DNA from: Bacteroidia bacterium
GTDB lineage: Bacteria > Bacteroidota > Bacteroidia > Flavobacteriales > Flavobacteriaceae
Reading direction: 5' to 3'
Length of the DNA stretch: 64,000 nucleotides
Assembly (NCBI GenBank): GCA_030432635.1
Contig: JAUIMB010000004.1
Span: 62,001-126,000, forward strand
The position numbers and the translations under genes are program-made. The notes under the pieces are model-generated. The model was given only the letters and a program-made list of their open reading frames with translations, had not been told where the DNA came from and did not search any database. Positions 228 through 63,160 of this stretch are shown in pieces. The stretch's first letter is position 1. The number at the start of each line of letters is the position of its first letter.

Positions 228-251
228 GGTATTAGAACCAAGATTTAGACT

Positions 252-284
252 AAAGCTTCATAAGACATTATGGAGCTTTTTTTA
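252..284 (+). terminator. Intrinsic terminator after citrate synthase
   Basis: AAGCTTCATAA pairs with TTATGGAGCTT (one G-U pair) around a short loop, followed by a run of T. It lies 25 nt after the gltA stop. Confidence 0.75.
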
Positions 285-368
285 ATTATTTTTAAAAATA
301 GTGGGTAACAATTTGTAATGATTGGAACATTTAAATGAAATCGAACATAACATTTAAAAACAATCATT

Positions 369-1598: not shown

Positions 1599-1629
1599 AA
1601 TATCAGTTTAATTTTTAAATCTCAACATT

Positions 1630-2982: not shown

Positions 2983-3006
2983 AATCAAGAGTTCACATCA
3001 TTTATT

Positions 3007-3037
3007 AAGCTCCACTTTAAATCGTGGAGCTTTTTTT
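3007..3037 (+). terminator. Intrinsic terminator of the fibre / T9SS pair
   Basis: AAGCTCCAC pairs perfectly with GTGGAGCTT around an 8-nt loop, followed by seven T. The T tract runs straight into the TATATTTG promoter element of the next gene. Confidence 0.85.
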
Positions 3038-3044
3038 ATATTTG
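3037..3044 (+). promoter_or_regulatory. Predicted -7 element (TATATTTG) of the DDAH-like gene
   Basis: Exact match to the Bacteroidota TAnnTTTG -7 element. It begins at the last T of the preceding terminator and ends 6 nt before the ATG at 3051, predicting transcription start at or next to the start codon. The position expected for a -33 element lies inside the terminator hairpin. Confidence 0.5.
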
Positions 3045-3050
3045 CAATCT

Positions 3051-3965: not shown

Positions 3966-3974
3966 TTTTTTGTT

Positions 3975-5051: not shown

Positions 5052-5056
5052 GCTAA

Positions 5057-6217: not shown

Positions 6218-6247
6218 GTGATATTGGTGTTGCGATTTACACGAGGT

Positions 6248-6514
6248 TCATTCGCGATATAAAAAGTAATTATTCACCAATTCGATATACATACGTTTGG
6301 CGTCATCTTCACTGACGTCTTGTACTTGAAATAGCGCATTGGTCTTAAAGGCATTAATAATTGGTTTACGACTACTTGGTCTACCATAATCATTGGTCGC
6401 TTTTTTATAATAGGCATACAATCGCAAGAGGAAATCTGCAGGAAAAGGCTCAGCATGAGCGTTTATACGCGCAACAGCTTCTTCAAATTCGATTTGTAAT
6501 TCTTCTGAACTCAT
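6248..6514 (-). CDS. Acyl-CoA-binding protein (ACBP)
   Basis: At 88 residues it has the length of a free-standing ACBP. It shows the helical-bundle pattern: an FEEAVARIN helix 1, the LLRLYAYYKKAT segment (Tyr and Lys residues that contact the acyl-CoA in the family), a short loop replacing the usual GD...P, and a C-terminal A..MYIELVNNY helix. The role in the family is to sequester and deliver long-chain acyl-CoA in the cytoplasm. Its ATG overlaps the psd stop by 4 nt (ATGA), so translation is coupled, which suggests a link between acyl-CoA supply and phospholipid synthesis (inference). Confidence 0.8.
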   Translation of the reverse strand: MSSEELQIEFEEAVARINAHAEPFPADFLLRLYAYYKKATNDYGRPSSRKPIINAFKTNALFQVQDVSEDDAKRMYIELVNNYFLYRE

Positions 6515-7164
6515 CGTTTTTCAGCAATAACACTTTCGCCTCCTCTTACTTTTTGGTTAAGTTCAACTTTGATATCAGCATCCAATGGTAAAAATAGATC
6601 GACACGAGATCCGAATTTTATAAATCCCGAATCTGAACCCTGTATGGCCTCATCCTTGACTTTTGCATAATTGACAATACGTTTCGCCAAAGCACCTGCA
6701 ATTTGTCTGTAAAGGATTTTTCCGAAGTTTTTATTTTCAACAACAACCGTTGTACGTTCATTTTCCTCACTTGCCTTAGGATGCCATGCAACAAGATATT
6801 TTCCAGGATGATATTTACTGTAAGTTACATTTCCGCTTATGGGATAACGTGTCACATGAACATTTATTGGCGACATAAATACAGATACCTGAATGCGTTT
6901 ATCATTGAAGACTTCCTTTTCATAAACTTCCTCGATGACTACTACTTTCCCATCTACGGGAGAGACTGCAGTATGGGCTTCTATTTTTGTATGCCGTTTT
7001 GGATTTCTAAAAAATTGAAGAATCAAGACCAACAATACCAGTAGCCCAATTAATAATGTTAATCGTAACCATTGGATATCGATAAATCTATCGATCAATA
7101 AACTGCCAGTGATGACAATGACAAATGTGATGAATATGATTTTATAACCTTCTTTATGAAACAT
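6511..7164 (-). CDS. psd: Phosphatidylserine decarboxylase, short form
   Basis: The 217-residue protein is the short Psd type common in Bacteroidota and archaea. Two membrane segments lie at about 8-24 and 33-52. The VSPVDGKV segment (~67-74), SVFMSPINVHVTRYP (~94-108) and the self-cleavage site FGS (G185-S186) are present. The serine is converted to the pyruvoyl prosthetic group, giving beta and alpha chains. The enzyme makes phosphatidylethanolamine from phosphatidylserine at the inner membrane. The start overlaps the cdsA end by 11 nt, and its stop overlaps the ACBP start, matching a phospholipid-synthesis operon. Confidence 0.9.
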   Translation of the reverse strand: MFHKEGYKIIFITFVIVITGSLLIDRFIDIQWLRLTLLIGLLVLLVLILQFFRNPKRHTKIEAHTAVSPVDGKVVVIEEVYEKEVFNDKRIQVSVFMSPINVHVTRYPISGNVTYSKYHPGKYLVAWHPKASEENERTTVVVENKNFGKILYRQIAGALAKRIVNYAKVKDEAIQGSDSGFIKFGSRVDLFLPLDADIKVELNQKVRGGESVIAEKR

Positions 7165-7975
7165 AATGTACTAATCTTAAAAACAAAAATATAAAAGGTG
7201 CAGCAAAGATAATACTATCCAAGCGATCCATTAAACCACCATGACCAGGCATGATCACACCACTGTCCTTGACGTTTGCCTGACGCTTAAACTTAGATTC
7301 TATTAAATCGCCAAGTGTTCCAAAGACACTGATAATAATACTTAAAATAAGCCAATTGGTAAAGCTTAAGGTTTCGGTATAGTGTGCAATAAAATAGCTT
7401 GCTACACATGAAAAAAAGAGTCCGCCAAGAAAACCTTCCACGGTTTTCTTTGGAGAGATTTTAGGGAAAAGTTTTTGCTTACCAAAGTTTTTTCCAACAA
7501 GGTAGGCAAATGTGTCGTTAATCCAAACCAATAGAAATGAGCCGAATAGGAGCAATGGTGTAAACTTTTGGTCAAAATTTGCAATAGCGTTGATAAAAAC
7601 AAAACCACTTGAGAGATAAAACGTGGTAAGTATAAATCGTTTCGCACTAAAAAGCGGAATGGTCTTTTCCGAAAACAGATCCTTGATCAATATCAATTGA
7701 ACGAATATGGTTAAGACCAATAATATTTGACAGGCTTCATCGACTCCAGTTGTAGATGGTGAAAGTAGACTCCAATAAGCAAATCCCAAATATAAAAAGG
7801 TAAAAATAAGGTAAGGTGAAAAGCTTTTTAAGTGAATCAGTTTTTTAAACTCGATCATACAAATGATTCCGAAAAAATAAAAGAGGGTAATGAGCGCGTG
7901 CTGCCAAAATAAAGCGACAACAAGAAGCGAAGCATATAAAAGGCCTGAGAGCGCTCTTGTACCAAGTTCTTTCAT
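7154..7975 (-). CDS. cdsA: Phosphatidate cytidylyltransferase
   Basis: The 273-residue polytopic protein (about eight hydrophobic helices) ends with the CDP-alcohol synthase signature: a GDLIESKFKR segment, then KDSGVIMPGHGGLMDRLDSI (about residues 235-255), with the conserved Asp residues. PKKTVEG upstream is also typical. It converts phosphatidic acid plus CTP to CDP-diacylglycerol, the branch point of phospholipid synthesis. The ATG follows the stop of the LUD gene with no gap, and its 3' end overlaps psd, so the gene is inside a translationally coupled chain. Confidence 0.92.
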   Translation of the reverse strand: MKELGTRALSGLLYASLLVVALFWQHALITLFYFFGIICMIEFKKLIHLKSFSPYLIFTFLYLGFAYWSLLSPSTTGVDEACQILLVLTIFVQLILIKDLFSEKTIPLFSAKRFILTTFYLSSGFVFINAIANFDQKFTPLLLFGSFLLVWINDTFAYLVGKNFGKQKLFPKISPKKTVEGFLGGLFFSCVASYFIAHYTETLSFTNWLILSIIISVFGTLGDLIESKFKRQANVKDSGVIMPGHGGLMDRLDSIIFAAPFIFLFLRLVHYVS

Positions 7976-8581
7976 TTATAAGTCTTCTAGGAGCATCAAA
8001 TATAAGTTTTTTGAACTACTTCCGTAGGTCAGGAAGTCTTTATCTTCGATGGCTTTAAAATGCTTAATGGTTGTAATATTTGTTGGAATTTTATTGCGGT
8101 TTTTCCCTTTAATGCCACGCAAGCCTTCTCCAATATTTTGGACAAATTGACTAGTGGTAGCATAAATGATGAAATTATCAGGAAGTTCCTTCAGCTTCTT
8201 TTCAGCAATTTGATTGGAAGAGATGAGCAGTGAACCATCATCAGAAATCAAGTACTCACAAGTAGAGAGAAAATAGGTGCTTTCCGATATGCGTTCTGTG
8301 GTATTTAACTCAAAGTCTTTGAACAAGTCATTCAAACGTTCATCAAAAAGCAGTACCTTATTATCTTGCCATCCATTTTCCTTCAGGATTGAATTGAAAC
8401 TATCCTGAATTTCCTGCATATTTTCGCAATATAGAAACTTACCACCATTGGCCTTGAAGTTTATGGTGAATTGTTCATCCACAGGCAACTTTACCTCAGG
8501 CATATACTTGCCTCGTTCTTCGCTTTTTATGTGGTCTTCGGGTGTGTTTTTTAAACCGAAGATTTTACGAAATAAACTCAT
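7976..8581 (-). CDS. LUD (LutC/YkgG-type) domain protein
   Basis: The 201-residue protein has an N-terminal basic tail and a domain from about residue 55 on that looks like the LUD fold: NGWQDNKVLLFDE, a CEYLISDDGSLLIS strand-turn-strand, NFIIYATTSQFVQNIGEGL and a terminal GSSSKNLYLMLLEDL. LutC-type proteins work in lactate oxidation in other bacteria, but no lutA/lutB partner is present here. Its place between ftsH and cdsA suggests another job, possibly in membrane or acyl metabolism (inference). It ends directly at the cdsA start. Confidence 0.65.
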   Translation of the reverse strand: MSLFRKIFGLKNTPEDHIKSEERGKYMPEVKLPVDEQFTINFKANGGKFLYCENMQEIQDSFNSILKENGWQDNKVLLFDERLNDLFKDFELNTTERISESTYFLSTCEYLISDDGSLLISSNQIAEKKLKELPDNFIIYATTSQFVQNIGEGLRGIKGKNRNKIPTNITTIKHFKAIEDKDFLTYGSSSKNLYLMLLEDL

Positions 8582-8693
8582 GTATTGGGTACGCTATTAA
8601 TCGTATGTCTCTGATGTATGTTTTCAAATATAAAAAAACTAAAATGAATGGTTTATGGATTTAAGTTTTTTATAAGACAAAGTTCGAGAGTGG

Positions 8694-10685
8694 TTAGTCT
8701 TCTTTTTCGATTTCAACTTCAGGCTCGGTTTCTGTTTTTTCCTCAGGTTTAGGTTCGGAAAGTTCTTTTTTCTCGAATGGACGCTTTCCAAAAATTACTT
8801 CTAGGTTATCCTTAAAGATGACTTCTTTTTCAAGAAGTACTTCGGCTAATTCTGTGAGTTTGTCCTTATGTTGTTCCAGCAGATTTACAGCACGTTGGTA
8901 TTGTTCTTCAATGATGTCTGAAATTTCCTTGTCGATCAATTCTGCAGTTTGCTCACTGTAAGGTTTAGTAAATCCATATTCCGATTGTCCTGAAGAATCG
9001 TAATAGGTAAGGTTACCAACTTTATCGCTCAAACCATAAATAGTGACCATTGCGCGAGCTTGTTTGGTTACTTTTTCAAGGTCACTCAATGCACCTGTTG
9101 AAATTTTATTGAAAATAACTTTTTCAGCAGCTCGTCCACCAAGTGCAGCACACATTTCATCCAACATTTGTTCGGGTCTTACGATCAATCGTTCTTCTGG
9201 TAAATACCAAGCGGCACCCAAGGATTGCCCTCGAGGAACAATGGTTACTTTAACCAAAGGAGCAGCATGCTCTAACATCCAACTAACGGTAGCATGACCA
9301 GCTTCATGATAGGCAATGGCCTTTTTTTCTTCCTTGGTAATGATCTTGTTTTTCTTTTCAAGTCCACCAACAATTCGATCTACAGCATCGAGAAAATCTT
9401 GTTTTCCAACGGCTTTCTTACCATTACGTGCAGCAATAAGGGCAGCTTCGTTGCACACGTTTGCAATATCAGCACCCGAAAATCCTGGTGTTTGTTTTGC
9501 TAGAAAATCGACATCTAGTTTTTCGGATTGCTTAATTGGTCTCAAATGCACTTCAAAAATTTCTTTTCGTTCACGTACATCTGGAAGATCAACAAAAATT
9601 TGTCTGTCAAAACGACCAGCACGCATAAGAGCTTTGTCTAAAACATCAGCTCGGTTGGTGGCTGCCAAAACAATAACATTGGTATTGGTTCCAAAACCAT
9701 CCATTTCAGTCAATAGCTGGTTTAGTGTATTTTCGCGTTCATCGTTAGATCCCGAAAAATTACTTTTTCCTCTAGCTCTACCAATAGCATCGATTTCATC
9801 AATAAAAATAATAGCAGGCGATTTTTCTTTAGCCTGTTTAAATAAATCCCTTACACGAGAGGCACCAACACCAACAAACATTTCGACAAAGTCTGAACCA
9901 GATAAGGAGAAGAAAGGGACTTTGGCCTCTCCAGCAACGGCTTTCGCGAGTAAGGTTTTACCTGTTCCTGGTTGACCAACCAATAAAGCGCCTTTAGGTA
10001 TTTTTCCACCAAGGGATGTGTATTTTTCAGGGTTTTTTAAGAAATCAACGATTTCTTGCACTTCTTCCTTGGCACCTTCCAGTCCTGCCACATCCTTGAA
10101 AGAGGTTTTTACATCTGTTTTTTCATCGAAGAGCTTGGCTTTGGATTTTCCTATATTGAAAATTTGTCCACCAGCACCACCACCAGCACCGCCAGACATA
10201 CGTCTCATGATAAAAATCCAGACACCTATGATTAAAATGAATGGAAGTAAGGAGAACAATAAGTTTCCGAACAAATTCTCTTCGGTTTTAAATGATACAG
10301 GCACATCAACATTAGGATTGTTCTTATTGATGTTGTTGACTTCATTCTGAAAAATCTCCAATTCACCAAATTCGAATGAATAATTAGGTTGTGCTGTTAC
10401 CGAAGGAATAATGTTGTTGGGTTTTGCTTTTTTATGGATTTCCTTTGAAAGAGCCTCTTTGGTCAAAAACACTCTAGCTTCCCTGTTATTGATTATATCC
10501 AGCCTTGCAACATCGCCTTGTTCCATAAACCCGAAAAAGTCAGAGGGATTGATTTGCTTTGCAGATGATCCTCCAAAACCTCCTGATAAAAATTGGATGC
10601 CCAAAAAAGCAGCAATTACGAGTCCGTAAACCCAATAAGGGCTGAATTTTGGTTTCTTATTTATATTTTTATTGTCTTTTGCCAT
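8694..10685 (-). CDS. ftsH: ATP-dependent zinc metalloprotease FtsH
   Basis: The 663-residue protein shows the full FtsH order: two membrane helices (about 16-34 and 138-160) around a periplasmic domain, Walker A GQPGTGKT (237-244), Walker B IIFIDEID (292-299), the SRH region ending RAGRFDRQ (~355-362), and the zinc protease motif HEAGH (460-464). A Gly-rich linker (164-173) and a Glu/Pro-rich C-terminal tail are lineage features. It degrades short-lived and misassembled membrane proteins at the inner membrane. It follows rsfS by 36 nt and precedes LUD-cdsA-psd. In E. coli FtsH controls lipid A synthesis, so linkage to phospholipid genes is suggestive (inference). Confidence 0.96.
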   Translation of the reverse strand: MAKDNKNINKKPKFSPYWVYGLVIAAFLGIQFLSGGFGGSSAKQINPSDFFGFMEQGDVARLDIINNREARVFLTKEALSKEIHKKAKPNNIIPSVTAQPNYSFEFGELEIFQNEVNNINKNNPNVDVPVSFKTEENLFGNLLFSLLPFILIIGVWIFIMRRMSGGAGGGAGGQIFNIGKSKAKLFDEKTDVKTSFKDVAGLEGAKEEVQEIVDFLKNPEKYTSLGGKIPKGALLVGQPGTGKTLLAKAVAGEAKVPFFSLSGSDFVEMFVGVGASRVRDLFKQAKEKSPAIIFIDEIDAIGRARGKSNFSGSNDERENTLNQLLTEMDGFGTNTNVIVLAATNRADVLDKALMRAGRFDRQIFVDLPDVRERKEIFEVHLRPIKQSEKLDVDFLAKQTPGFSGADIANVCNEAALIAARNGKKAVGKQDFLDAVDRIVGGLEKKNKIITKEEKKAIAYHEAGHATVSWMLEHAAPLVKVTIVPRGQSLGAAWYLPEERLIVRPEQMLDEMCAALGGRAAEKVIFNKISTGALSDLEKVTKQARAMVTIYGLSDKVGNLTYYDSSGQSEYGFTKPYSEQTAELIDKEISDIIEEQYQRAVNLLEQHKDKLTELAEVLLEKEVIFKDNLEVIFGKRPFEKKELSEPKPEEKTETEPEVEIEKED

Positions 10686-17722: not shown

Positions 17723-19780
17723 TTAATCTACAGGTTTGGTCTTTGGAAGTTCAACGTAAAATTTGGTTCCAATACCTAGTGTACTTTCTACCCAAATTCT
17801 TCCATTGTTTAATTCGACCAATTCCTTACAAATGGATAAGCCAAGGCCAGTTCCTTTTTCGTTGTCTGTTCCTCTTGTGGTAAAAGATCCATTCTTAAAT
17901 AATTTATCGACGTTTTCAGGCGCAATACCAACACCAGTGTCTTCGACACAAATTAAACTATTTCCACTTAGATCGGTATTGGAGACTGTAATCACATCTG
18001 CAACGCGAGAAAACTTCACAGCATTGGTGATGAGGTTTTGTACTACAATTTCAACCATACTTTTGTCGGCATAAATAAAATCACGACGTGATTCATCAAT
18101 AAGCACAATACGTTTCTGTTCGACTTTCTGTTCAACCAAACTCATTTTGGAGCGGAAAACCTCTTGAATATTGAAAAGTTCTGGTTTTGGTTTTAAGCTT
18201 TGCATTTGGGATTTAGACCAATTGAGCAAGTTGTACAATAGTTGCGATGCACTATCGGCATTTTCACTCAATTCAGGAATCAAATCATAGAACTCTTCCT
18301 TTGAAATACCGTCTTCCTTGAGCAAGTCTATACAGCCTTTAATGGACGAGATAGAATCCTTAAGGTCATGTGATACTATGGAAAATAGGCGATCCTTAAC
18401 ATGGTTGACTTCCTCGAGGTGTTGTTTCTGCTTAGCAAATTCTTGGTTTTTAAGTCTAATCTCCAAGTTTTTATCCTGCAGTTCTTCATTGAACTTTAAG
18501 GTGTTCTTGCGCTTAAGGTAAATGAGTAACAAAATGGTAGATACAATTAGAAATGCTGCGCCAAGGACATATGAGATCGCTTTTAATTTTTTGAATGTTT
18601 TGTCATTTTCCTGCTCCTTCAGCTTTAAGGCCATGTCGTTGTCTACATCCTCTTCATCTTCTATAGGTTCTATTTCTATAGGTTTTGTAATAACAGGCGT
18701 GATGGGTTGTATTTCTTTGTCCATCTCACTTTTGAGACTGTAATATTTGCCTTGCCAAAAGAAGGCATTTTGAAATCGTCCTCTAATGGAGTCCAATTCC
18801 TTATGAAGTTTATAATTCTTGAGTAACTCTTCCTTGTTGTCTATTTTTGTCGCTATATCATAAGCTTCATCAATTTGAGCTTGGGCAGTACGAAGGTTTT
18901 TTTGTTGCATGTTTAGCTCACCAATGGCATTTAGCGCTCTTAGAATACCGTCTTCGTTATCAATTTGCCTGTTGAAGGTAAGTCCTTCAACTAAATATTC
19001 GGCGGCTTTACCGTAGTCTTTAAACTGAAGATATTCAGCTCCTATGCGAGGTAAAATTTCACCTTTTAAGCGTTGGTCTGTTATAGGGTTGATTAGGCTT
19101 AAGACAGTTTCAAAATATTCAATAGCCTTACGGTGTTCTTTTCTTTCAGAATACAATAGTGCTATATTTTTGGTTGAGTTTTTAATGCCAACACTATCCC
19201 TAAGCTGTTTTCTTACATTCAATGCCTTGATATTAAACTCAAGTGCCTTGTCAATTTGGTTCGTATTATAGTAAGCTTCGGAAAGGTTGTTATAGGCTGA
19301 ACTTAGTTCATCCTTAAGATTTCGGGACTCGAAGATATGAATGGCAGATAACGAATTTTGAAGCCCAACATTGTAATTGCCACGTTTGATTTCTATGAGA
19401 CCAATGCTGTTGTTGACCTTTGCGATACCAAGTGTGTCACCTAGTTGGCGATAGAATTTTCGAGACCTGTTATAACCGTCGATGGCATTGTAATAGTCAT
19501 CATTTTTAGCATAAATCAAAGCTTTGTAGTAGTTCACATCAGCGATACCTTTACTATGATTTAAAAACTCGGCTAAATGCTCAGTTTGATCAATGTATAA
19601 AAGTGCTTTTTTGTAGTTCTCATCCCGATATAGAGCCTTGACCAAATGAATAGAGGTGTCAACTTTCGAAGAGTCTTGTTTTTGATAAGCTAATTGTATG
19701 GTCAAGCTGTCGATCTCGTCCGTTTGCGTAAAACAGAAAGTCGAAGCAAGTAAAACAGCTAATGTTATTAACTGTTTCAT
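17723..19780 (-). CDS. Orphan sensor histidine kinase with periplasmic TPR domain
   Basis: The 685-residue protein has a signal peptide (1-19), about seven TPR units (~25-330), one membrane helix (ISYVLGAAFLIVSTILLLIYL, about 402-422), a coiled coil and a HisKA domain with the phosphorylated His in SIVSHDLKDS (about residue 471). A HATPase_c domain follows with N box QNLITNAVKFS, G1 DTGVGI and G2 GTGLGLSI. The TPR array outside the membrane probably senses a protein or peptide partner (inference). No response regulator is adjacent, so its target lies elsewhere. A TAATTTTG element (19803-19810) lies 22 nt upstream of the start. Confidence 0.88.
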   Translation of the reverse strand: MKQLITLAVLLASTFCFTQTDEIDSLTIQLAYQKQDSSKVDTSIHLVKALYRDENYKKALLYIDQTEHLAEFLNHSKGIADVNYYKALIYAKNDDYYNAIDGYNRSRKFYRQLGDTLGIAKVNNSIGLIEIKRGNYNVGLQNSLSAIHIFESRNLKDELSSAYNNLSEAYYNTNQIDKALEFNIKALNVRKQLRDSVGIKNSTKNIALLYSERKEHRKAIEYFETVLSLINPITDQRLKGEILPRIGAEYLQFKDYGKAAEYLVEGLTFNRQIDNEDGILRALNAIGELNMQQKNLRTAQAQIDEAYDIATKIDNKEELLKNYKLHKELDSIRGRFQNAFFWQGKYYSLKSEMDKEIQPITPVITKPIEIEPIEDEEDVDNDMALKLKEQENDKTFKKLKAISYVLGAAFLIVSTILLLIYLKRKNTLKFNEELQDKNLEIRLKNQEFAKQKQHLEEVNHVKDRLFSIVSHDLKDSISSIKGCIDLLKEDGISKEEFYDLIPELSENADSASQLLYNLLNWSKSQMQSLKPKPELFNIQEVFRSKMSLVEQKVEQKRIVLIDESRRDFIYADKSMVEIVVQNLITNAVKFSRVADVITVSNTDLSGNSLICVEDTGVGIAPENVDKLFKNGSFTTRGTDNEKGTGLGLSICKELVELNNGRIWVESTLGIGTKFYVELPKTKPVD

Positions 19781-45542: not shown

Positions 45543-47213
45543 ATGTGCGGAATAGTATGTGCGTTCGAATTAAAACAAAAAAGTGAAACCCTGAGACCCC
45601 AAGTCTTGGAAATGGCAAAAGCCATTCGCCATCGTGGTCCAGATTGGAGTGGTATCTATAGTGATGATAAAGTCATAATGGCTCATGAGCGCTTGGCAAT
45701 TGTTGATCCAGCATCAGGAAAACAGCCTTTGTTTACAGCGGATAAAAAAATCATCTTGGCAGCCAATGGCGAAATTTATAACCATAGGGAATTACGAGAG
45801 CAGTTTCCGTCGTATGCCTTTCAAACTGAAAGTGATTGTGAGGTGATATTGGCATTGTATAAAGAAAAGGGCGTTGATTTTATTGATGAGATGAATGGTA
45901 TTTTCGGATTTGCCATTTATGATGTCGAAAAAGACGAATACTTCATAGCACGTGATCACATGGGAATCATTCCGTTGTATATTGGTTGGGACAAATATGG
46001 AACCTTCTATGTCGCTTCCGAATTGAAAGCTTTGGAAGGCATTTGTACTAAGATAGAGCTATTTCCTCCAGGTCATTACCTGTCAAGTAAAAATGGAGAA
46101 TTTGTGCAATGGTATAAAAGAGATTGGGAAGATTATGAGGCTGTTAAACACAATGAAACTAGCATTGCTGAAGTAAGACAAGCTTTGGAGGATGCTGTTC
46201 ACAGACAATTGATGAGCGACGTGCCTTACGGTGTTTTGTTGTCTGGAGGCTTGGATTCCTCTGTGACTTCTGCCATTGCCAAAAAATATTCAGAGCGTCG
46301 AATTGAAGCCGATGATAAGGAGAAAGCATGGTGGCCTCAATTGCACTCATTTTCAGTAGGATTAGAAGGCTCACCTGATTTGGCTGCTGCACGCAAAGTG
46401 GCTGATCATATTGGGACGATTCATCATGAAATTCAATTTACTATTCAAGAAGGATTGGATGCGCTGAAGGACGTTATTTATCAATTGGAAACTTATGATG
46501 TTACTACCGTTAGAGCAAGCACGCCAATGTATTTAATGGCTAGGGTTATAAAATCCATGGGTATTAAGATGGTGTTGTCTGGAGAAGGAGCAGATGAGCT
46601 CTTTGGTGGTTACCTGTATTTCCATAAGGCACCAAATGCCAAAGAATTTCATGAGGAAACAGTAAGGAAGTTAGGCAAACTTCACCAATACGACTGCTTA
46701 CGTGCAAACAAAAGTTTAGCGGCTTGGGGCATCGAAGGTCGTGTGCCTTTCTTGGATAAAGAGTTTATGGATGTTGCCATGCGTATCAATCCGAAGGATA
46801 AAATGATTAACAATGAACGCATTGAAAAATGGGTTGTTCGCAAAGCTTTTGAAGATATGCTTCCAGAAAGTGTCGCTTGGAGACAAAAGGAACAATTTAG
46901 CGATGGTGTAGGTTATAGTTGGATTGACACTTTAAAGGAGCTCGTTGAAGTAGAGATTAGTGATGAGCAAATGGCCAATGCGCATTTCCGTTTTCCTATA
47001 CAAACGCCTCAAAATAAAGAAGAATACTATTACCGATTGATATTTGAGTCACATTTTACTAGTGATGCTGCAGCAGCCAGTGTTCCTCAAGAGCCAAGTG
47101 TTGCCTGTAGTACAAAAATCGCCTTAGAATGGGACGAAGCGTTTAAAAATATGAATGATCCTAGTGGTCGAGCAGTTGCAAAAGTCCATGATGATGCTTA
47201 TGTTAGAATTTAG
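45543..47213 (+). CDS. asnB: Asparagine synthase B (glutamine-hydrolysing)
   Basis: The 556-residue protein begins MCGIVCAFE, so Cys2 becomes the N-terminal nucleophile of the glutaminase domain after Met removal. RHRGPDWSGIY, AHERLAIVDP and GEIYNHRELRE follow. The synthetase domain has the PP-loop LLSGGLDSSVTSAIA (~232-245), and later LSGEGADELFGGYLY. It makes Asn from Asp, Gln and ATP. Length and motifs are complete. A CATATTTG (one base from TAnnTTTG) lies about 40 nt upstream. Confidence 0.96.
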   Translation: MCGIVCAFELKQKSETLRPQVLEMAKAIRHRGPDWSGIYSDDKVIMAHERLAIVDPASGKQPLFTADKKIILAANGEIYNHRELREQFPSYAFQTESDCEVILALYKEKGVDFIDEMNGIFGFAIYDVEKDEYFIARDHMGIIPLYIGWDKYGTFYVASELKALEGICTKIELFPPGHYLSSKNGEFVQWYKRDWEDYEAVKHNETSIAEVRQALEDAVHRQLMSDVPYGVLLSGGLDSSVTSAIAKKYSERRIEADDKEKAWWPQLHSFSVGLEGSPDLAAARKVADHIGTIHHEIQFTIQEGLDALKDVIYQLETYDVTTVRASTPMYLMARVIKSMGIKMVLSGEGADELFGGYLYFHKAPNAKEFHEETVRKLGKLHQYDCLRANKSLAAWGIEGRVPFLDKEFMDVAMRINPKDKMINNERIEKWVVRKAFEDMLPESVAWRQKEQFSDGVGYSWIDTLKELVEVEISDEQMANAHFRFPIQTPQNKEEYYYRLIFESHFTSDAAAASVPQEPSVACSTKIALEWDEAFKNMNDPSGRAVAKVHDDAYVRI

Positions 47214-47425: not shown

Positions 47426-49021
47426 TTAGTTACCTTTTTGATTTAATAGTAGTTTAATGTCCTCAAGCTCTTTTTCAAGATTAGACAATCTCTCTTCTTG
47501 AATTTTAATGATTTCGTGTTGCTCTTGTATCCCTTTTACCAATGTTGGAATTAATCCAATATAGTTTACCGAATTAAACTCTATTTTAGGCGAGATTAAT
47601 TTTTTGTTTTGATCTTCTAAATCAAACTGTTCAGGATTAATGGTTTCTTTTACTAGTTCTGGAAATATTAAGGCAAAATCTTCAGCAATAAAACCAGTTT
47701 GCTTTCCTTGAGGTAGATTCATGAAATCATATTCCTCTGTTTTATAGTCATAATTTTTGACATCGATTGTCAATAATTTTGCAAGTACCGATCTAGCAGA
47801 ATTGATATTGGTTTTCAGAAAACGAGCAGACGGATTTGTGAGTACACCTGAAATATAGACATCTCCTAAAAAATGACCAGCATCACCTGCTGTTGTATTT
47901 ACCTCAGAATATACACCGTAATTTGTACCGTTGGTCGTACTTATCCTATTATAGCTACCATATTTATCACCTGTTCCTGAATTCAGAATGAAATTATAAC
48001 TACCATGTATATCACCTGTTCCTCCACCATCCATGATGTTTGCAGTACCATAGGCATCTGAAGCATTAAAACCACGTGTAAAATTGTATACGCCATAGTG
48101 AGTGCCTCCACCACTAGAGATTTCGTTGAACAAACCGTATTTATCACCACTACCACTACCGCTCACGTCATTGTAAATACCATATCTATCGTTGGTAACA
48201 GAACTAGATGTATTATTCAACAAATTTAAAATGCCATATTCTTCTGGATTTCCTCCATTAGTTCTTACATTATTATAAAATCCGATGACTTCACCTGTAG
48301 GTGAACCATTCATTCTCTGCCAAATACCAACATAATCATCTGGTGAGTCACTCTCCATTTCTCGATAGATACCATAAATCCTACCATTGCCGTTCTGTCT
48401 TAATTCTTGCTCAGTTCCAGTTATAGTGCCAGAACCTCCACTTGTACTAGCAAATAAATAGTTGCCAGTAACCGAATTACCTCCATTGCCAAAGGTTGAT
48501 ACATAACTGCCTGTTATGTTACCATTTCCAGAGTTGGAGATATCCGTATATAAACCTCGGATATTATTTGAAGAGTTTTCAGATAATGACAGATTTAACA
48601 TGCCTTGAAAAGTGAACCCATTGCCAATATTTACGGCGCCTTGCGTGTAAATATCATCCGTAATATCATTTGAGGAATTCGTAGTATTTCTAACGTACCA
48701 ATCTGCATCGCCTGTTCCTGCATTGCTAGTTAATATTTTTGTCCAAATTCCACCACTAAAAAGATAAAAACCAATTCCATCTCCTCCTGTTACAGAACTA
48801 TTAGTATTGTAAATGAGCATACCTTCAGCAGTGTTGTTGGAGCCGTCCAATTGGGACTGGCTTACATTGCTTAGAGAAACACGAGGAATTAGAATTCCCT
48901 TGTCGGTTGCCATTATATCTAATATAGCCGAGGGATCTGGTGTAGTGGTATTAATACCAACTTGTGCTTGAGTCAAAAAAATGCTAGCTAAACAAAGGAG
49001 ATATAGATAAAAAATTCTCAT
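47426..49021 (-). CDS. Secreted fibre protein with peptidase S74 (intramolecular chaperone) domain
   Basis: The 531-residue protein has a signal peptide (1-20), an N-terminal head (ATDKGILIPRVSL, typical of Bacteroidota tail-fibre proteins), then about ten Y-G-x-[YF]-N-type repeats (~150-385; e.g. YGIYNDVSGSG, YGLFNEISS, YGVYNFTRG), and a C-terminal S74-like domain starting at NPSARFLKTNI with a candidate catalytic S398-K403 dyad, followed by QTGFIAEDFALIFPELV and a coiled-coil end. In phage fibres this domain folds the trimer and then cuts itself off. The gene is divergent from the propeller-kinase system, and two matched operator-like sites lie before its promoter. Confidence 0.78.
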   Translation of the reverse strand: MRIFYLYLLCLASIFLTQAQVGINTTTPDPSAILDIMATDKGILIPRVSLSNVSQSQLDGSNNTAEGMLIYNTNSSVTGGDGIGFYLFSGGIWTKILTSNAGTGDADWYVRNTTNSSNDITDDIYTQGAVNIGNGFTFQGMLNLSLSENSSNNIRGLYTDISNSGNGNITGSYVSTFGNGGNSVTGNYLFASTSGGSGTITGTEQELRQNGNGRIYGIYREMESDSPDDYVGIWQRMNGSPTGEVIGFYNNVRTNGGNPEEYGILNLLNNTSSSVTNDRYGIYNDVSGSGSGDKYGLFNEISSGGGTHYGVYNFTRGFNASDAYGTANIMDGGGTGDIHGSYNFILNSGTGDKYGSYNRISTTNGTNYGVYSEVNTTAGDAGHFLGDVYISGVLTNPSARFLKTNINSARSVLAKLLTIDVKNYDYKTEEYDFMNLPQGKQTGFIAEDFALIFPELVKETINPEQFDLEDQNKKLISPKIEFNSVNYIGLIPTLVKGIQEQHEIIKIQEERLSNLEKELEDIKLLLNQKGN

Positions 49022-49080
49022 GTTGATGGAATGAAAAAGTGGCTAAAGTCTCCAATAAAGATCTGTAGATTTGACGCTTA

Positions 49081-49088
49081 CAAACATA
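49081..49088 (-). promoter_or_regulatory. Predicted -7 element (TATGTTTG) of the S74 fibre gene
   Basis: TAnnTTTG match on the minus strand with a leader of about 50 nt before ATG 49021. No TTG lies at -33, as expected for a promoter that needs an activator; the first operator-like site occupies the position just upstream. Confidence 0.5.
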
Positions 49089-49111
49089 ATAATCAGTCAC
49101 ATACGATTTAC

Positions 49112-49129
49112 TCACCCAAACGGGTAGTT
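49112..49129. promoter_or_regulatory. Operator-like site 1 (ACCC-N4-GGGT dyad)
   Basis: TCACCCAAACGGGTAGTT. It matches site 2 at 17 of 18 positions and has a short ACCC/GGGT dyad, typical of two-fold binding by LuxR-type helix-turn-helix proteins. Centred about 45 bp upstream of the predicted fibre-gene start. Confidence 0.55.
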
Positions 49130-49158
49130 TGATAATGCAGATGGTCATCACTTAAAAA

Positions 49159-49176
49159 TCACCCAAATGGGTAGTT
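49159..49176. promoter_or_regulatory. Operator-like site 2 (ACCC-N4-GGGT dyad)
   Basis: TCACCCAAATGGGTAGTT, starting 47 bp from site 1 in the same orientation. With one C-to-T change the core ACCCAAATGGGT keeps its dyad and gains extra symmetry. Confidence 0.55.
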
Positions 49177-49297
49177 CCTTTTACTGATATTTTTAGTAAA
49201 ATTTACTACGCACTCTATGAGATGTAACTTGTTGAAATTTAGTGTTATTTTGTACTTTTATTTGTTAACCCAAAATTCCTGCAAATAGGATACGCTT

Positions 49298-52200
49298 ATG
49301 AAGAATGTATTCTTCAGCATTTTTGTCATTTTATTTTTAGTCATTATTGTCAACGCGCAAAAGAGCTATCAATTTCAGCATTTTGGGGTAAAAGACGGAC
49401 TCTCGCAATCAAATGTTCATGCAATCTTTCAGGATAGTAGAGGTTTTATTTGGATTGGTACAAACAAGGGACTTAATAAATTTAATGGGCAAGATTTCGA
49501 AGTGTTTATGCCTAGTTCAGATTCTCTGAAAATTGGATTGGCTCATCAAAGTGTTTACGACATTATAGAAGACAGTGAAGGCAATTTGTGGATAGCTACT
49601 AGAGATGGTGTGAGTAAATATGACCCAAAGCTCGGTACTTTTAAAAACTTTCAAAAGACTGGAAACTGCAACGGGTGTTTGGCTGGTCAGATTGTAAAGA
49701 AGCTTATAGAAATACCACCTTACGTGTATGTAGGTAGCTCGGCTGGATTGTCACGTATTCATACAGTAACAGACGAGGTTAAAGGTTGGTGGTATACAGA
49801 TGGAAGTGATGGCATACCTTATATTTATTCTATTCGTGATTTTGAGTTGTTGCCAAATGGGAGTCTCATGATGGCTACAGATGATGGTTTGGCATATTAT
49901 AATCCTAAAACTGATTCTTATAGAACCATTACTGCAAAAGATGGTTTGCCTGATGCTGGAAATGGGATAGAGGCAATCTTTAAAGATAGTTCCAATCAAT
50001 ATTGGCTAGGTATGTCGCGCAGTGGTGTGGTAAGATTAATTGGTGATCCTAATAATCCACAGTTTGTACAACTGCCAATGCAAGAGCCTAATGGTATTCC
50101 TTCTCATACGGTTTATGAGATTGTAGAACATACAAATGGAGTTTTGCTCATTGGGTCACACAGTGGTATTGTACAATATAAAATAAAAACAGACACATAT
50201 GAATATTTGAAAAGTAATCCTGGGAGTACACATTCAATAAGTGATAATGAGGCTAAAAATCTTTATATCGATAGTGAAGATAGACTTTGGGTAGCTGGTA
50301 ATTATGGTCTAGATGTTTACGACCCTTACGTGAATCAGTTTGAAATCATAGGGTATTCTTCAAACCCTGAAAAAGGATTGACTAGTAATAATATTACTGC
50401 ACTTCATCAAGATCAAACAGGAGCTATATGGATTGGTAATTCAGAAACAGGAGTTACGGTTTTCGAAGAAAAAAACGGTATAAAGTCATACCACCACATT
50501 GATGCAGAAAACGGTTCGAATACACTAAGCGATCCGGTAGTTTATGAAATAAGTGAAGATAATGATGGAAATATATTTATAGTGACAGGAAATGGTATTA
50601 ATAAAATTGTTTGGCATGATAGAGGCAATTTAAAGTATACCATTTCAACCATACCGATTGGGCCTATTTCAGAACAAAAACTACCTACACCATATGTTAA
50701 TCTCATTTATGAAGATCAAAACAATTCTCTTTGGTTTGCGACACATGGAAAAGGAATTGTAAATAAAGATAATTTTGGCAAATTCACACAATATAGATAC
50801 GAATTACAAGATCCAAACTACTTGTCAGGAGATTATGTGACTCATGTCATTCAAGATGAAAAAGGTAATTTTTATGTGTCAAATTCAGGGAGTGGTTTTT
50901 CTTATCTTAACGTTGTTGGACAGGACACAGTATATAGAAAATTCAAGGCTAAAACACCGTTCAATCGTGTTCAATCTTTTAATGTAACACTACATCAGAA
51001 TAAACTATTTGCCAATACCTCTGTTGGGAGTTATTTTTTTTCCAATAAAGAAGAATTGCATACCAAGGAAAATGCGACTTACAAATTGTATAATGAATCC
51101 AATGGTCTTCCTGATAATAGTGTCATGAAAGTAGTTCCGGTTACAGACAGTACGTATTGGTTTAGTACAGGTAATGGTCTTGCATTTGTTAATACTCAGC
51201 AGGAAAATGCCACTCCATACAAATATATTGCTGGCGCCAGGAATGTCGAGTTTGCCCGTAATTCAGGTTTGATGAGCAGTGACAGTACCATATATTTTGG
51301 CAGTTTAAAAGGGGTAGTACGCTTTAAGCCCAAAGAGTTTCAGAAAAACACAAAGGCACCAAGACTCTACTTTTCAGAATTTAAGATTTGGAATAAATCG
51401 GTACCTGTTGGCATAAATTCTAAAAACAATACTACATTACCCAAGAATATAGATTTTCTTCGGAAGGTCACGCTTCAACCGGAAGATAAAGTCTTCAGCG
51501 TTGACATGAATGCTGTAAATTTCACGCTACCACAAGAAATTCATTACGCATACAAATTAGAAGGATTTGATGAAGATTGGAATTATACTGAAAACAACAA
51601 TATCACACGTTCTAATTTAGAGCCAGGTACATATACCTTATTGGCTAAGGCGGCAAATAACGATTGGTTTTGGTCCGAACCGATTTCCCTAAAAATTGAA
51701 ATACTTCCACCTTGGTATCTCACATGGTGGGCATATCTATTGTTTGCTTTGTTATGTGCTGGAGCTGTGTCAATATTGTTGAAAATTCGGTTGCAACAAG
51801 AGCGTCGTGTAGAACTGGCTCGTTCGCAGGAACGCGATATTTTTAGAAAACGCAGTTCTCGTGATTTTCATGATGAAGCCGGAACCAAAATTACGAGGAT
51901 TTCATTAATAACCGAATTAGCGCGTTTGGAAAACTCAGACAACAAACCCTTGCAGAGTTATCTCGACCAAATTGAAGAAAATGTTCAAGACCTTAATCAT
52001 GGGATGCGCGATTTTATCTGGACCTTAGATCCAACAAAAGACAACGCATATGATACCTTCACGAGGTATATCGAGTTTGCAGGAAATTTTTGTGAATATG
52101 CCAACGTAAAGTTTCAATCTCAAGTGATTTCCGAAGATTTAAAATCCAAAGAGCTTAATATGGCCGAACGTCGACACTTGCTAATGATTTTAAAGGAAGC

Positions 52201-52453
52201 TACGAATAATTGCATCAAACACGGCAATCCTACCATTATTAATTTTGAGGTAAACTATAGACCCAAAAGTTTAAAGATTATATTGAAGGATAATGGTAGA
52301 GGTTTTGATGTTGATAAGGAAAAACGAGGAAATGGATTAAATAATATGAAAGAACGAGCCGAAGCCTTAGGTGGTGTTCTAAAAATAGAATCCAAGATCA
52401 ACGATGGAACAACATTGTTACTTACCTTGCAAACGACCCGATTGGGCAATTGA
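49298..52453 (+). CDS. Two-component sensor kinase with propeller and Y_Y_Y domains
   Basis: The 1051-residue protein has a signal peptide (1-20), two periplasmic seven-bladed propeller-like regions with the repeated 'I.QD..G.IWIGT..GL..F' unit (~25-680), a Y_Y_Y immunoglobulin-like domain (~715-800), one membrane helix (~810-828), a NarX/DesK-type dimerisation domain with the phospho-acceptor in RDFHDEAGTK (H about 858) and HATPase_c (DNGRGFDVDK, RGNGLNNMKERAEALGG). The extracellular part resembles sensors of oligosaccharides in Bacteroidota hybrid systems, but here the kinase is separate from its regulator. Followed by the LuxR-type regulator and facing the S74 fibre gene. Confidence 0.9.
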   Translation: MKNVFFSIFVILFLVIIVNAQKSYQFQHFGVKDGLSQSNVHAIFQDSRGFIWIGTNKGLNKFNGQDFEVFMPSSDSLKIGLAHQSVYDIIEDSEGNLWIATRDGVSKYDPKLGTFKNFQKTGNCNGCLAGQIVKKLIEIPPYVYVGSSAGLSRIHTVTDEVKGWWYTDGSDGIPYIYSIRDFELLPNGSLMMATDDGLAYYNPKTDSYRTITAKDGLPDAGNGIEAIFKDSSNQYWLGMSRSGVVRLIGDPNNPQFVQLPMQEPNGIPSHTVYEIVEHTNGVLLIGSHSGIVQYKIKTDTYEYLKSNPGSTHSISDNEAKNLYIDSEDRLWVAGNYGLDVYDPYVNQFEIIGYSSNPEKGLTSNNITALHQDQTGAIWIGNSETGVTVFEEKNGIKSYHHIDAENGSNTLSDPVVYEISEDNDGNIFIVTGNGINKIVWHDRGNLKYTISTIPIGPISEQKLPTPYVNLIYEDQNNSLWFATHGKGIVNKDNFGKFTQYRYELQDPNYLSGDYVTHVIQDEKGNFYVSNSGSGFSYLNVVGQDTVYRKFKAKTPFNRVQSFNVTLHQNKLFANTSVGSYFFSNKEELHTKENATYKLYNESNGLPDNSVMKVVPVTDSTYWFSTGNGLAFVNTQQENATPYKYIAGARNVEFARNSGLMSSDSTIYFGSLKGVVRFKPKEFQKNTKAPRLYFSEFKIWNKSVPVGINSKNNTTLPKNIDFLRKVTLQPEDKVFSVDMNAVNFTLPQEIHYAYKLEGFDEDWNYTENNNITRSNLEPGTYTLLAKAANNDWFWSEPISLKIEILPPWYLTWWAYLLFALLCAGAVSILLKIRLQQERRVELARSQERDIFRKRSSRDFHDEAGTKITRISLITELARLENSDNKPLQSYLDQIEENVQDLNHGMRDFIWTLDPTKDNAYDTFTRYIEFAGNFCEYANVKFQSQVISEDLKSKELNMAERRHLLMILKEATNNCIKHGNPTIINFEVNYRPKSLKIILKDNGRGFDVDKEKRGNGLNNMKERAEALGGVLKIESKINDGTTLLLTLQTTRLGN

Positions 52454-52479
52454 TTGTCAAATGGTTAATACCTGTTTTT

Positions 52480-53121
52480 ATGATAAACCCAACAAACTTG
52501 ACTAGTATAAAGATCTGTATTGTTGAAGACGACACCTTAATTTTAAAGTCGTTGCAACAAGTATTGAACAAAGCTGATGGCTTTTCGGTTATTGGTGCTT
52601 TTGTTTCTGCAGAGATTGCTTTGGAAAAATTAAAAACATATGAACCAGATGTGCTGTTACTGGATATTGACCTTCCAGGGATTTCAGGTATTGAAGCCAT
52701 TCCTAAACTCAAAAGAATCCAACCAGAACTTAATATTGTCATTTTAACCGTTCACGAAGAATCAGAATTGGTTTTTTCAGCATTGCGAAAAGGTGCTGTT
52801 GGGTATTTGGTAAAAGGGAGCAATTCAAAATATTTATTGCAAGGCATACGTGAGGTTTTTGAAGGAGGATCTCCTATGAGTCCTAGTATCGCGAGGCAAG
52901 TGATTAAGTCATTTACGCCAAATACAGAAACAAATTTAAGTGAACGTGAGCTCGAGGTACTTCAAAAACTGAGTAATGGCACCAATAACAAACAAATTGC
53001 CGAAGATCTTTTTGTTTCAACCAACACAATAAAAGCGCATATAAAAAATATTTATCGCAAGCTTCATGTCAATTCTCGAGCTGAAGCTGTAAGCAAGGCC
53101 ATGAAGAAAGGATGGATATAA
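52480..53121 (+). CDS. NarL/LuxR-family response regulator
   Basis: The 213-residue protein has a receiver (ICIVEDDTLI, phospho-acceptor D62 in LLLDIDLPG, KGAVGYLVKGS) and a C-terminal LuxR HTH (~146-205; LSERELEVLQKLSNGTNNKQIAEDLFVSTNTIKAHIKNI). It is the partner of the upstream kinase, 26 nt after its stop. ATG 52480 was chosen; an in-frame TTG at 52450 would overlap the kinase stop by 4 nt and is possible. Candidate targets are the ACCC-N4-GGGT sites near 49.1 kb. Confidence 0.92.
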   Translation: MINPTNLTSIKICIVEDDTLILKSLQQVLNKADGFSVIGAFVSAEIALEKLKTYEPDVLLLDIDLPGISGIEAIPKLKRIQPELNIVILTVHEESELVFSALRKGAVGYLVKGSNSKYLLQGIREVFEGGSPMSPSIARQVIKSFTPNTETNLSERELEVLQKLSNGTNNKQIAEDLFVSTNTIKAHIKNIYRKLHVNSRAEAVSKAMKKGWI

Positions 53122-53676: not shown

Positions 53677-55623
<1,947 letters not shown>

Positions 55624-60871: not shown

Positions 60872-62446
60872 ATGAGCAAAAAGCTATTCATTTTATTGGT
60901 GGTTTTAATGAGTTTGTCACTCATAGGTATCATTTTCGTTCAAGCTTATTTTATCAATAATACCTTACAAAATGAAGAGAAGCAGTTTACTTCAGATGTC
61001 AAACGTTCTCTAATCGCTGTTTCAAAGGCTATTGAAGATAAAGAACTTCTAAGTTATGATAGACTGGTCAACGAAGTTGTCAATAAAGGACGTGTTCCTG
61101 ATACCACGGAAATCAAACAGTTTTTGATTTTTGATTCGTTTAATGAAGAAACCAATCAAGCCGTTCGGTTTAGAAACGCGATTTCCGAAGAAAGCTTTAA
61201 AGTGCCATCCTTGTTCTTTGACATTGGTAGAGACAGTATTAATATTAGTAGATTCACCAATCATAGTGTGACAAATGTTTTTGAGAAGAGTGAAATCGAT
61301 GGTAAGATAAACCTTGAACCTGTTCAGACCTTTACCGAGTACAGTACTTTGGATGAAATAGGAAAGATGAACTACAAAATTGGATATCATAATGTTTATA
61401 AGAACTTTCCGATTTACAAGCGTATTTCCAACGAGGAAATGTCCGAGCTTTTAAATTCCCAATTTGATATAAGTGGTATAAAGACCGATTTTGAATATGC
61501 GATTTATGATAAGGATTTGTCAACGAAAATCAGATCCGATAATTTTGAGCTCAGTCCAGAAACAACCTTGGGAGTTCCTGTGTTCATGGATCATGAAAAT
61601 AGTGTTAAGTATAGACTTTATGTCGATTTTCCTAAACGGAAAAAGTACATCCTATCATCTATTTTAGGGATGATTGTTTTGTCGGTAGTGTTTACTTCCA
61701 TCATAATCTTAGCGTATTCAAGTGCCATTTATCAGTTGGTAAAACAACGTCAGATTTCGCAAATCAAAACCGATTTCATCAATAATATGACTCATGAGTT
61801 CAAGACACCAATTGCTACAATCAATTTGGCATTGGACTCAATTAAAAACCCTAAGATCATAGGCGACCAGGAAAAGGTTAAACGCTATCTTAAGATGATA
61901 AAGGATGAGAACAAACGAATGCACGCTCAAGTAGAGAATGTGCTACGAATCTCAAAACTCGAAAAAAACGAACTAAATATAAGTAAGGAACGTGTCAAGC
62001 TTCACGACTTAGTACAAGATGCAGTAACCCATGTGCAGTTGATTGTTGAGGATAGAAAAGGCTATGTCAAAACGCATTTGGAAGCTGAGAAATCTTCGGT
62101 TCTAGCAAACGATACACATTTTACAAATGTCATTGTCAACATTTTGGACAATGCCATAAAATATAGCAACGATGCACCTAAGATTGATGTTTATACTGAA
62201 AATGTCGGTACCAATATACTGCTAAAGGTCACAGATCAAGGTAGTGGTATGTCAAAACAAGTTCAAAAGCGTGTGTTCGAAAAGTTTTATAGAGAACACA
62301 CAGGAAATGTACATAATGTTAAAGGTCATGGTTTAGGTTTGGCCTATGTTAAACGAATAGTAGACGACCATCAAGGTCATATATCAGTAGAAAGTGAAAA
62401 AGGGAAGGGTAGTACATTCACAATTAAACTACCCCTAATATCATAA
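60872..62446 (+). CDS. Sensor histidine kinase, RprX-like
   Basis: The 524-residue kinase has two membrane helices (~5-27 and ~256-284) around a ~225-residue periplasmic sensor, then HisKA with the H in DFINNMTHEFKTPIATINL (H about 308), N box NVIVNILDNAIKYS, and HATPase glycine boxes DQGSGM and GHGLGLAYV. It is followed 3 nt later by an OmpR-type regulator. The order coaE-kinase-regulator-miaA resembles what I know of flavobacterial genomes (recollection). The sensed signal is unknown. Confidence 0.9.
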   Translation: MSKKLFILLVVLMSLSLIGIIFVQAYFINNTLQNEEKQFTSDVKRSLIAVSKAIEDKELLSYDRLVNEVVNKGRVPDTTEIKQFLIFDSFNEETNQAVRFRNAISEESFKVPSLFFDIGRDSINISRFTNHSVTNVFEKSEIDGKINLEPVQTFTEYSTLDEIGKMNYKIGYHNVYKNFPIYKRISNEEMSELLNSQFDISGIKTDFEYAIYDKDLSTKIRSDNFELSPETTLGVPVFMDHENSVKYRLYVDFPKRKKYILSSILGMIVLSVVFTSIIILAYSSAIYQLVKQRQISQIKTDFINNMTHEFKTPIATINLALDSIKNPKIIGDQEKVKRYLKMIKDENKRMHAQVENVLRISKLEKNELNISKERVKLHDLVQDAVTHVQLIVEDRKGYVKTHLEAEKSSVLANDTHFTNVIVNILDNAIKYSNDAPKIDVYTENVGTNILLKVTDQGSGMSKQVQKRVFEKFYREHTGNVHNVKGHGLGLAYVKRIVDDHQGHISVESEKGKGSTFTIKLPLIS

Positions 62447-62449
62447 ATT

Positions 62450-63160
62450 ATGGAAGAGCAAAATAAAAAAATTCTTTTGGTTGAAGACGATCCTAACTTT
62501 GGAACCGTATTAAAAGACTATCTTAACATGAATGACTATGAGGTCGTTCATGCCAAAAACGGAATGGAAGGTTTCGAAAAATTTAAAAAAGACGATTACG
62601 ACCTGTGCATTCTGGATGTCATGATGCCATATAAGGATGGATTTACTCTAGCTAAGGAGATTAGGGAGAAAAATACCGATGTTCCTATTATATTCCTCAC
62701 AGCAAAAGCCATGAAGGAAGACGTTTTAAAAGGGTATAAAGTCGGCGCAGACGATTACCTTAATAAGCCTTTTGATAGTGAAGTGCTCTTGATGAAGATC
62801 AAGGCCATCATGCAGCGTAAGGCGACTGATACTATTGCTGATAGTAAGCAGTTTGAATTTAAGATCGGTAGATTTGACCTAAACTCTAAACTACGCTTTT
62901 TAAAGTTCGATGGAAAAGATCCTATAAAACTATCGCCTAAGGAAAACGAATTGTTGCGTATGTTAGCGCTACATGAAAATGATTTGATGCCAAGGGAATT
63001 GGCGCTGACCAAAATATGGAGGGATGATAATTACTTTACGTCACGAAGTATGGATGTGTACATTGCAAAGTTGAGAAAATATTTAAAATTGGATCCGAAA
63101 GTCGAAATTTTGAACATTCATGGTGAAGGGTTCAGGCTCGTCGTGAATCAAGATGCTTGA
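62450..63160 (+). CDS. OmpR-family response regulator, RprY-like
   Basis: The 236-residue protein has a receiver with acidic pocket LLVEDD, phospho-acceptor D56 in CILDVMMP and conserved K in DYLNKPFDSE, followed by a winged-helix DNA-binding domain (~140-232; IKLSPKENELLRMLALHENDLMPRELAL ... YFTSRSMDVYIAKLRKYL). It lies 3 nt after the kinase stop, so the two form one operon. RprY in Bacteroides regulates stress and membrane genes (family knowledge). Confidence 0.93.
   Translation: MEEQNKKILLVEDDPNFGTVLKDYLNMNDYEVVHAKNGMEGFEKFKKDDYDLCILDVMMPYKDGFTLAKEIREKNTDVPIIFLTAKAMKEDVLKGYKVGADDYLNKPFDSEVLLMKIKAIMQRKATDTIADSKQFEFKIGRFDLNSKLRFLKFDGKDPIKLSPKENELLRMLALHENDLMPRELALTKIWRDDNYFTSRSMDVYIAKLRKYLKLDPKVEILNIHGEGFRLVVNQDA

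Follow-up and report, generated by a model that had tools for sequence, protein, structure and literature searches.

We analysed a 64,000-nucleotide window of a Flavobacteriaceae genome (Bacteroidia bacterium, assembly GCA_030432635.1, contig JAUIMB010000004.1; genome G000, 3.5 Mb, 40 contigs), in which asnB and gyrB enclose a gene for a secreted S74-type fibre, a 276-bp gap, and the genes of a propeller/Y_Y_Y sensor histidine kinase and a LuxR/NarL-type response regulator (Table 1). The gap holds two nearly identical 18-bp elements, sites 1 and 2. The best explanation of the locus is probably that the regulator binds site 1 and switches on the fibre promoter in a class II-like manner, since the spacing between site 1 and the predicted −7 box of the fibre gene equals the 31 bp of conserved promoters in genomes with orthologous kinase-regulator pairs. 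In kind, the system is a standard two-component switch, set apart by a novel operator geometry and by its uncommon target.

The first-pass annotation of the window described sites 1 and 2 as identical at 17 of 18 positions, equally oriented, 47 bp apart, and each built around an ACCC-N4-GGGT dyad in the 276-bp gap, all of which is confirmed. The window contains no other copy of ACCC-N4-GGGT. In the whole genome, the exact YACCC-N4-GGGTA pattern YACCCNNNNGGGTA occurs twice, both times in this pair (reversed control, three copies), and the exact copies of ACCCRWWYGGGTAGTT are again the two sites. At up to two mismatches, ACCCRWWYGGGTAGTT shows no genome-wide excess (18 matches vs 37 for the reversed control). 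The 17-mer at up to three mismatches is matched twice in the window (0.39 expected); since two matches also turn up in 7 of 100 window shuffles, the window taken alone is weak evidence. The shuffles are the point in favour of chance repeats without function, a reading to which we assign next to no probability in view of the conservation and spacing in other genomes. The pair rises above chance because it recurs there at syntenic places with a fixed promoter geometry.

The kinase was searched against 397 genomes of the family, and 22 match at E ≤ 1e-60. Close, full-length orthologues with 43–68% identity are found in seven genomes (G363, G153, G181, G034, G323, G154, and G364). In a distant pair, G185 and G465, the match covers the C-terminal half of the kinase (41–43%; whole kinases about 30%), and the regulators are 65–69% identical. 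These nine genomes, which belong to six genera and are related to each other, form the comparison set; 12 further, more distant kinase matches were left out, and the UBA3611 record, which shows no difference from G363 over the compared stretch, was counted once. Among 116 relatives, the kinase has a match in six only, none of which is another genome of the same genus.

The cluster of the nine genomes runs in the order nhaC, (an AhpC-type peroxiredoxin gene), kinase, regulator, envelope genes, tpx, dagK, a VWA gene, and ftsK, the envelope genes being OmpA-type in five genomes and coding for another secreted protein in the remaining ones. Dyads recur at four places in this cluster, three or four per genome. 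Upstream of the kinase, one ACCC-N4-GGGT is present in all seven close orthologues and in neither of the distant two, at the same place as site 2. The dyad at the kinase-regulator junction is found in eight of the nine genomes; it is degenerate in G034 and in the window, where the third site of Table 1 takes its position. The dyads between tpx and the divergent envelope gene and upstream of the VWA gene are both present in 9/9 genomes. As a control, 33 of 42 relatives (window genome included) have a tpx relative, and none of the 30 tpx loci compared outside the nine, that of the window genome included, has the dyad in the stretch examined around tpx. The recognition-helix region of the regulator is almost invariant in the alignment of the window with the nine genomes. 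The dyad is best read as the predicted operator of the adjacent LuxR/NarL-type regulator, recurring beside orthologous pairs.

The three-part composition that was initially taken as a module is not conserved. The kinase-regulator pair lies in the other cluster in all nine genomes, and in none of them is a fibre gene found beside the kinase; G154 and G364 have two fibre-like genes, beyond nhaC on the far side from the kinase. As for the conservation of the sites in relatives, by which the first-pass annotation proposed to judge its claim, comparison is possible for the kinase-side site only, which is conserved in 7/9. A full-consensus dyad should also be noted in G363 outside the cluster (contig C12, L217, position 5706), 73 bp before a lipoprotein-like gene that is a possible further target; no box within one mismatch lies at 31 bp from this dyad.

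Promoter geometry was measured on both sides of each dyad, counting from its centre to the opening base of the TAnnTTTG box. At the promoter divergent from tpx, the spacing is 31 bp with no mismatch in 9/9 genomes. At the VWA promoter it is likewise 31 bp in 9/9, five boxes having no mismatch and four having one. Site 1 shows the same spacing on the fibre side, 31 bp to a box without mismatch. Towards tpx, no box is found at 31 bp from the dyads and the spacing is not fixed; tpx was rejected as a target, the divergent gene being likelier. At a given offset, a box occurs with a frequency of 0.0007 (window) or 0.00115 (shuffled gap sequence), which puts the chance of such a coincidence, with two sites and two directions, at about 0.3–0.5%. 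Across about 537 kb of the window genome, some of it overlapping, the combination of a relaxed dyad and a box 31 bp away occurs once in perfect form, in the window, and twice with one mismatch.

The flavobacterial sigmaA box TAnnTTTG spans −12 to −5, according to the excerpted text of PMC9723704. The centre of the dyad would therefore lie at −43.5. By its geometry, a predicted activator site at a fixed place beside the core promoter, as in class II activation, is found at 18/18 orthologue promoters and at the fibre promoter. Class II activator sites lie near −41.5. The first-pass annotation had noted the minus-strand TAnnTTTG element facing the fibre gene, the lack of a −33 element (inspection finds no TTG at the expected position), and a class II-like placement of site 1; the first two are confirmed and the third is borne out by the geometry.

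A different LuxR-type regulator gene in G396 (L214, 6047–6820), whose product is 40% identical to the window regulator, has two similar upstream dyads 82 bp apart, and for both a box with one mismatch lies at 31 bp. Given this locus, the 31-bp geometry may extend wider than the regulator studied here.

Since site 2 matches the single kinase-side site of the seven close orthologues, none of which has an adjoining fibre gene, and sites 1 and 2 differ at one of 18 bases only, the sites might serve nothing but autoregulation of the kinase-regulator pair, with site 1 a duplicate of site 2 and the fibre gene a bystander. We first favoured this explanation on the kinase-side conservation and dropped it because of the spacing result; we now regard it as rather improbable. 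A perfect −7 box lies at the conserved 31 bp from site 1 towards the fibre gene and none towards the kinase gene, and the distance of about 4.5 helical turns, which places the two sites on opposite faces of the DNA, disfavours side-by-side binding on one face. The direction of control should be considered as well. The flank of the dyad overlaps the expected location of the −33 element, where binding could block polymerase, and the regulator might repress the fibre and envelope promoters instead of activating them. This is unlikely, because a fixed centre near −43.5, together with the missing −33 element at the fibre promoter, is generally the arrangement of activators.

The half-site is not unique to this system, as the two similar dyads of the G396 regulator demonstrate, and some other LuxR/NarL-type regulator of the cell might bind the dyads. 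We give this very little probability: the dyad stands beside this kinase-regulator pair in 10/10 genomes, the window counted, and the only two exact sites of the genome flank the pair. The exact site pair is present in one of 146 genomes searched, the window genome itself, a criterion that is too strict. The single site TCACCCAAAYGGGTA gives 23 matches in 21 of the 397 family genomes vs four for the control; two of these are in the window, four are upstream of kinase orthologues, and 17 are away from the kinase. With the stricter consensus ATYACCCNNNNGGGTRATT, 34 of the 397 genomes have a match vs seven with a control match. All nine orthologue genomes are among the 34, eight being matched in the cluster and G363 elsewhere only, and the other 25 are not accounted for by this kinase-regulator system. 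Seemingly identical sites in G449, G190, G311, and G390 are within a coding frame of similar genes and were discounted for that reason.

Several observations weigh against activation of the fibre gene through site 1. The kinase-side site has two or three mismatches at the 31-bp offset in 7/7 genomes, all starting with TA, and site 2 has no good box at 31 bp in either direction. The −33 TTG, seen beside most conserved sites, is absent at the fibre promoter. The 18 promoters from related genomes amount to two independent promoter families, of which the fibre promoter would be a third, and no second genome with a fibre gene adjoining this kinase was found among those searched. ATYACCCNNNNGGGTRATT has no match in the window genome, the window sites included. 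The totals of YACCCNNNNGGGTA in the seven close orthologue genomes are not clearly above the reversed control (G363, 17 vs 17; G364, 8 vs 14), and it is therefore the clustering, not the total number, that carries the argument. Both the activator role of the dyad and its binding by the regulator are predictions from sequence. The proposal of the first-pass annotation that the regulator activates the fibre gene via matched operators gains comparative support from the dyad recurrence and the 31-bp spacing; the part concerning site 2 fares less well, this site being the kinase-side counterpart.

In the mechanism that we propose, the kinase would respond to a ligand, taken as extracellular in the first-pass annotation, and a phosphorylated dimer of the regulator would bind the TCACCC-N4-GGGTA dyad. 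Site 1 would set the regulator at −43.5 of the fibre promoter, where RNA polymerase could be recruited and the fibre gene switched on. Class II-like recruitment is suggested because the fibre promoter keeps a good −7 box without a −33 element. Site 2, as the counterpart of the kinase-upstream site, would serve autoregulation. In other Flavobacteriaceae, the orthologous system would activate an OmpA or secreted-protein gene and the VWA gene with the same geometry.

The identities of the fibre, the propeller/Y_Y_Y kinase, and the LuxR-type regulator, as first annotated, are confirmed by Pfam. The kinase consists of the propeller, Y_Y_Y, one membrane span read from the sequence, and HisKA_3/HATPase_c; the similarity of its sensor to propeller sensors fits extracytoplasmic sensing. 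The kinase and regulator genes are on the same strand with 26 bp between them, and their products show an RDFHDEAG H-box region and an LLLDIDLPG receiver motif, respectively. Judging from domains and gene adjacency, the kinase and the adjacent NarL/LuxR-type regulator are a classical non-hybrid two-component system. The S74 intramolecular-chaperone domain of the fibre is at amino acids 401–458 (38.1 bits vs a Pfam cut-off of 22). By eye, the translation has a signal-peptide-like N terminus, Gly/Tyr-rich repeats, and a coiled-coil-like C terminus. The NCBIfam search gives no family for the fibre, and the PDB search gives no relative at E ≤ 0.01. More histidine kinase and kinase-regulator genes are present at 17723–19780 and 60872–63160 of the window (custom models).

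Table 1. Coordinates of the features of the locus in the window and of the S74 fibre loci compared with it
Feature	Position	Strand	Description
asnB	45543–47213		encloses the locus
Fibre gene	47426–49021	−	secreted fibre-like protein, 531 amino acids; single S74 domain (Pfam Peptidase_S74, 1.9e-09)
Intergenic gap, fibre/kinase	49022–49297		276 bp; holds both elements
Predicted −7 box of fibre gene, TATGTTTG	49081–49088	−	31 bp from centre of site 1
Site 1, TCACCCAAACGGGTAGTT	49112–49129 (dyad 49114–49125)		predicted activator site of fibre gene; centre at −43.5 from inferred start
Site 2, TCACCCAAATGGGTAGTT	49159–49176 (dyad 49161–49172)		counterpart of single kinase-upstream site in 7/9 other genomes
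Sensor histidine kinase, non-hybrid	49298–52453	+	1051 amino acids; Pfam Reg_prop, Y_Y_Y, HisKA_3, HATPase_c over cut-offs
Degenerate third site, AACGACCCGATTGGGCAATT	52432–52451		over 3′ end of kinase gene; 3 mismatches to AATYACCCNNNNGGGTRATT
LuxR/NarL-type response regulator	52480–53121	+	213 amino acids; Pfam Response_reg and GerE over cut-offs; aligned with nine orthologues
gyrB	53686–55623		encloses the locus
L220 (C4, window genome)	2618–7661	one strand	fibre, 17-bp gap, TPR-His_kinase, LytTR regulator
L222 (G002)	606–6659	one strand	fibre, 19-bp gap, TPR-histidine kinase, LytTR regulator
L228 (C22:174000–188000, at 181 kb)	1773–7615		TPR hybrid kinase, receiver, and HPt directly before S74 fibre
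L232 (C15)	1–10381		two TPR-HisKA_2 kinases, LuxR and LytTR regulators, and two fibre-type genes in 10 kb

The placement of the fibre, kinase, and regulator genes was compared within the genus. In 10 of 22 other genomes, asnB immediately precedes gyrB. Eleven more were compared, and in 10 of them asnB is upstream of gyrB with other genes between the two, which in nine of those ten are an XRE-like gene and membrane-protein-like genes (names read from sequence). In G011, asnB is outside the stretch examined, and G018 ends at a contig edge. A kinase, regulator, or fibre gene between asnB and gyrB is found in 0/21 same-genus genomes compared, and the three genes are therefore specific to the window genome at this place. 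An S74-like frame is present upstream of asnB in G014. These comparisons suggest that the trio was gained at asnB-gyrB, perhaps by transfer, with the direction of the evolutionary move being inferred. The fibre looks like a lineage-specific target; in this lineage, a surface fibre seems to have taken the place of envelope genes under the regulator.

Relatives of the fibre are found at 15 places in 9/57 genomes. The best match outside the window genome is in G002 (46% over amino acids 230–518, S74 domain), where the fibre gene and a TPR-HisKA_2 kinase gene with a LytTR regulator are divergently arranged, 234 bp apart. This kinase-regulator pair is different from that of the window, and the arrangement is counted in favour of activation of the window fibre by its neighbouring regulator. 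A weak match to Phage_T4_gp36, below the cut-off, is present in the G002 homologue as well. The window genome has five S74 loci, in the window and on contigs C4, C22, C15, and C9, the fibre of the last being cut by the contig end. The fibre-kinase-LytTR rows of C4 and G002 (Table 1) make up an apparent fibre-sensor operon in two genomes of the genus. The C22 locus adjoins frames resembling the PLP (pyridoxal phosphate)-enzyme and Lrp-like genes next to nhaC in a number of the orthologue clusters. Two fibre genes of the window genome are adjoined by small lipoprotein-like genes that resemble each other (…DTTPPTFS…; L228, 7621–8187; L233, 11693–12247).

Two-component genes are found within two genes of the fibre at four of the five loci of the window genome vs 15/272 control genes (binomial, 4e-5), with the reservation that the control genes come from 20 stretches of a single genome and that these same proteins had served to build the detection models. 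Among the 12 fibre places outside the window genome, two (both in G002) are near kinase or regulator genes, one (G010) is near a TPR-LuxR protein gene, and nine are near neither, and the 2/12 is not significant (0.14). Linkage of fibres to sensory genes as a general rule is thus unsupported beyond the window genome and G002; it is strong in these two and unproven in general. The neighbouring types are a propeller kinase with a LuxR regulator, a TPR kinase with a LytTR regulator in an apparent operon, a TPR hybrid with a receiver and HPt, and a TPR kinase with a LytTR regulator in divergent orientation. Tentatively, the S74 fibres of the genus might be a recurrent output or partner of unrelated two-component types, such that a regulator with its operators could be captured beside a fibre gene and then control it.

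As far as literature searches showed, little has been described of the operators and regulons of propeller/Y_Y_Y kinases paired with a separate LuxR-type regulator; among the titles listed by term searches of open-access literature, none reports an operator of such a kinase-regulator pair or an S74-fibre target. The comparison yields a concrete operator and a fixed geometry for predicting regulator targets in Flavobacteriaceae, and the neighbourhoods of fibre and sensor genes open the role of chromosomal S74 fibres to testing.

Bacteroides hybrid two-component systems (HTCS) regulate polysaccharide-utilisation loci. The window kinase resembles them in its Reg_prop propeller and Y_Y_Y sensor, the best PDB match being 4a2l, a sensor kinase/response regulator chain (4.9e-72), and in having exported-protein genes as targets, which in the window are predicted. 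Unlike HTCS, it has neither a receiver nor an AraC domain and is accompanied by a separate LuxR/NarL-type regulator, and no SusC/SusD or glycanase genes are among the neighbours listed for the window and the orthologues.

The S74-domain trimeric fibres (phage tail fibres, endosialidases) share the Peptidase_S74 domain with the window fibre. The window fibre differs from them in being chromosomal, with a signal-peptide-like start, neighbours that do not look like phage genes, and, as above, no PDB relative.

The NarX/NarQ-NarL/NarP systems likewise combine a HisKA_3 kinase with a NarL-like regulator. NCBIfam matches, all under cut-offs, are UhpB, NarQ, and NarX for the kinase and MadR, NarL, and NarP for the regulator. 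The NarL half-site TACYYMT, as given in an excerpt of PMC4886647, resembles the TACCC of the window. In the excerpted text of PMC9314961, NarL targets are mostly inverted repeats, with a '7-2-7' arrangement; this arrangement gives six bases between TACCC and GGGTA, whereas the window dyad has N4 and so departs from it as far as these excerpts describe it. Moreover, the window sensor is a propeller, not a nitrate sensor. Finally, the fibre promoter shares the TAnnTTTG box with flavobacterial sigmaA promoters and is distinguished from them by the predicted activator dyad fixed 31 bp upstream of the box.

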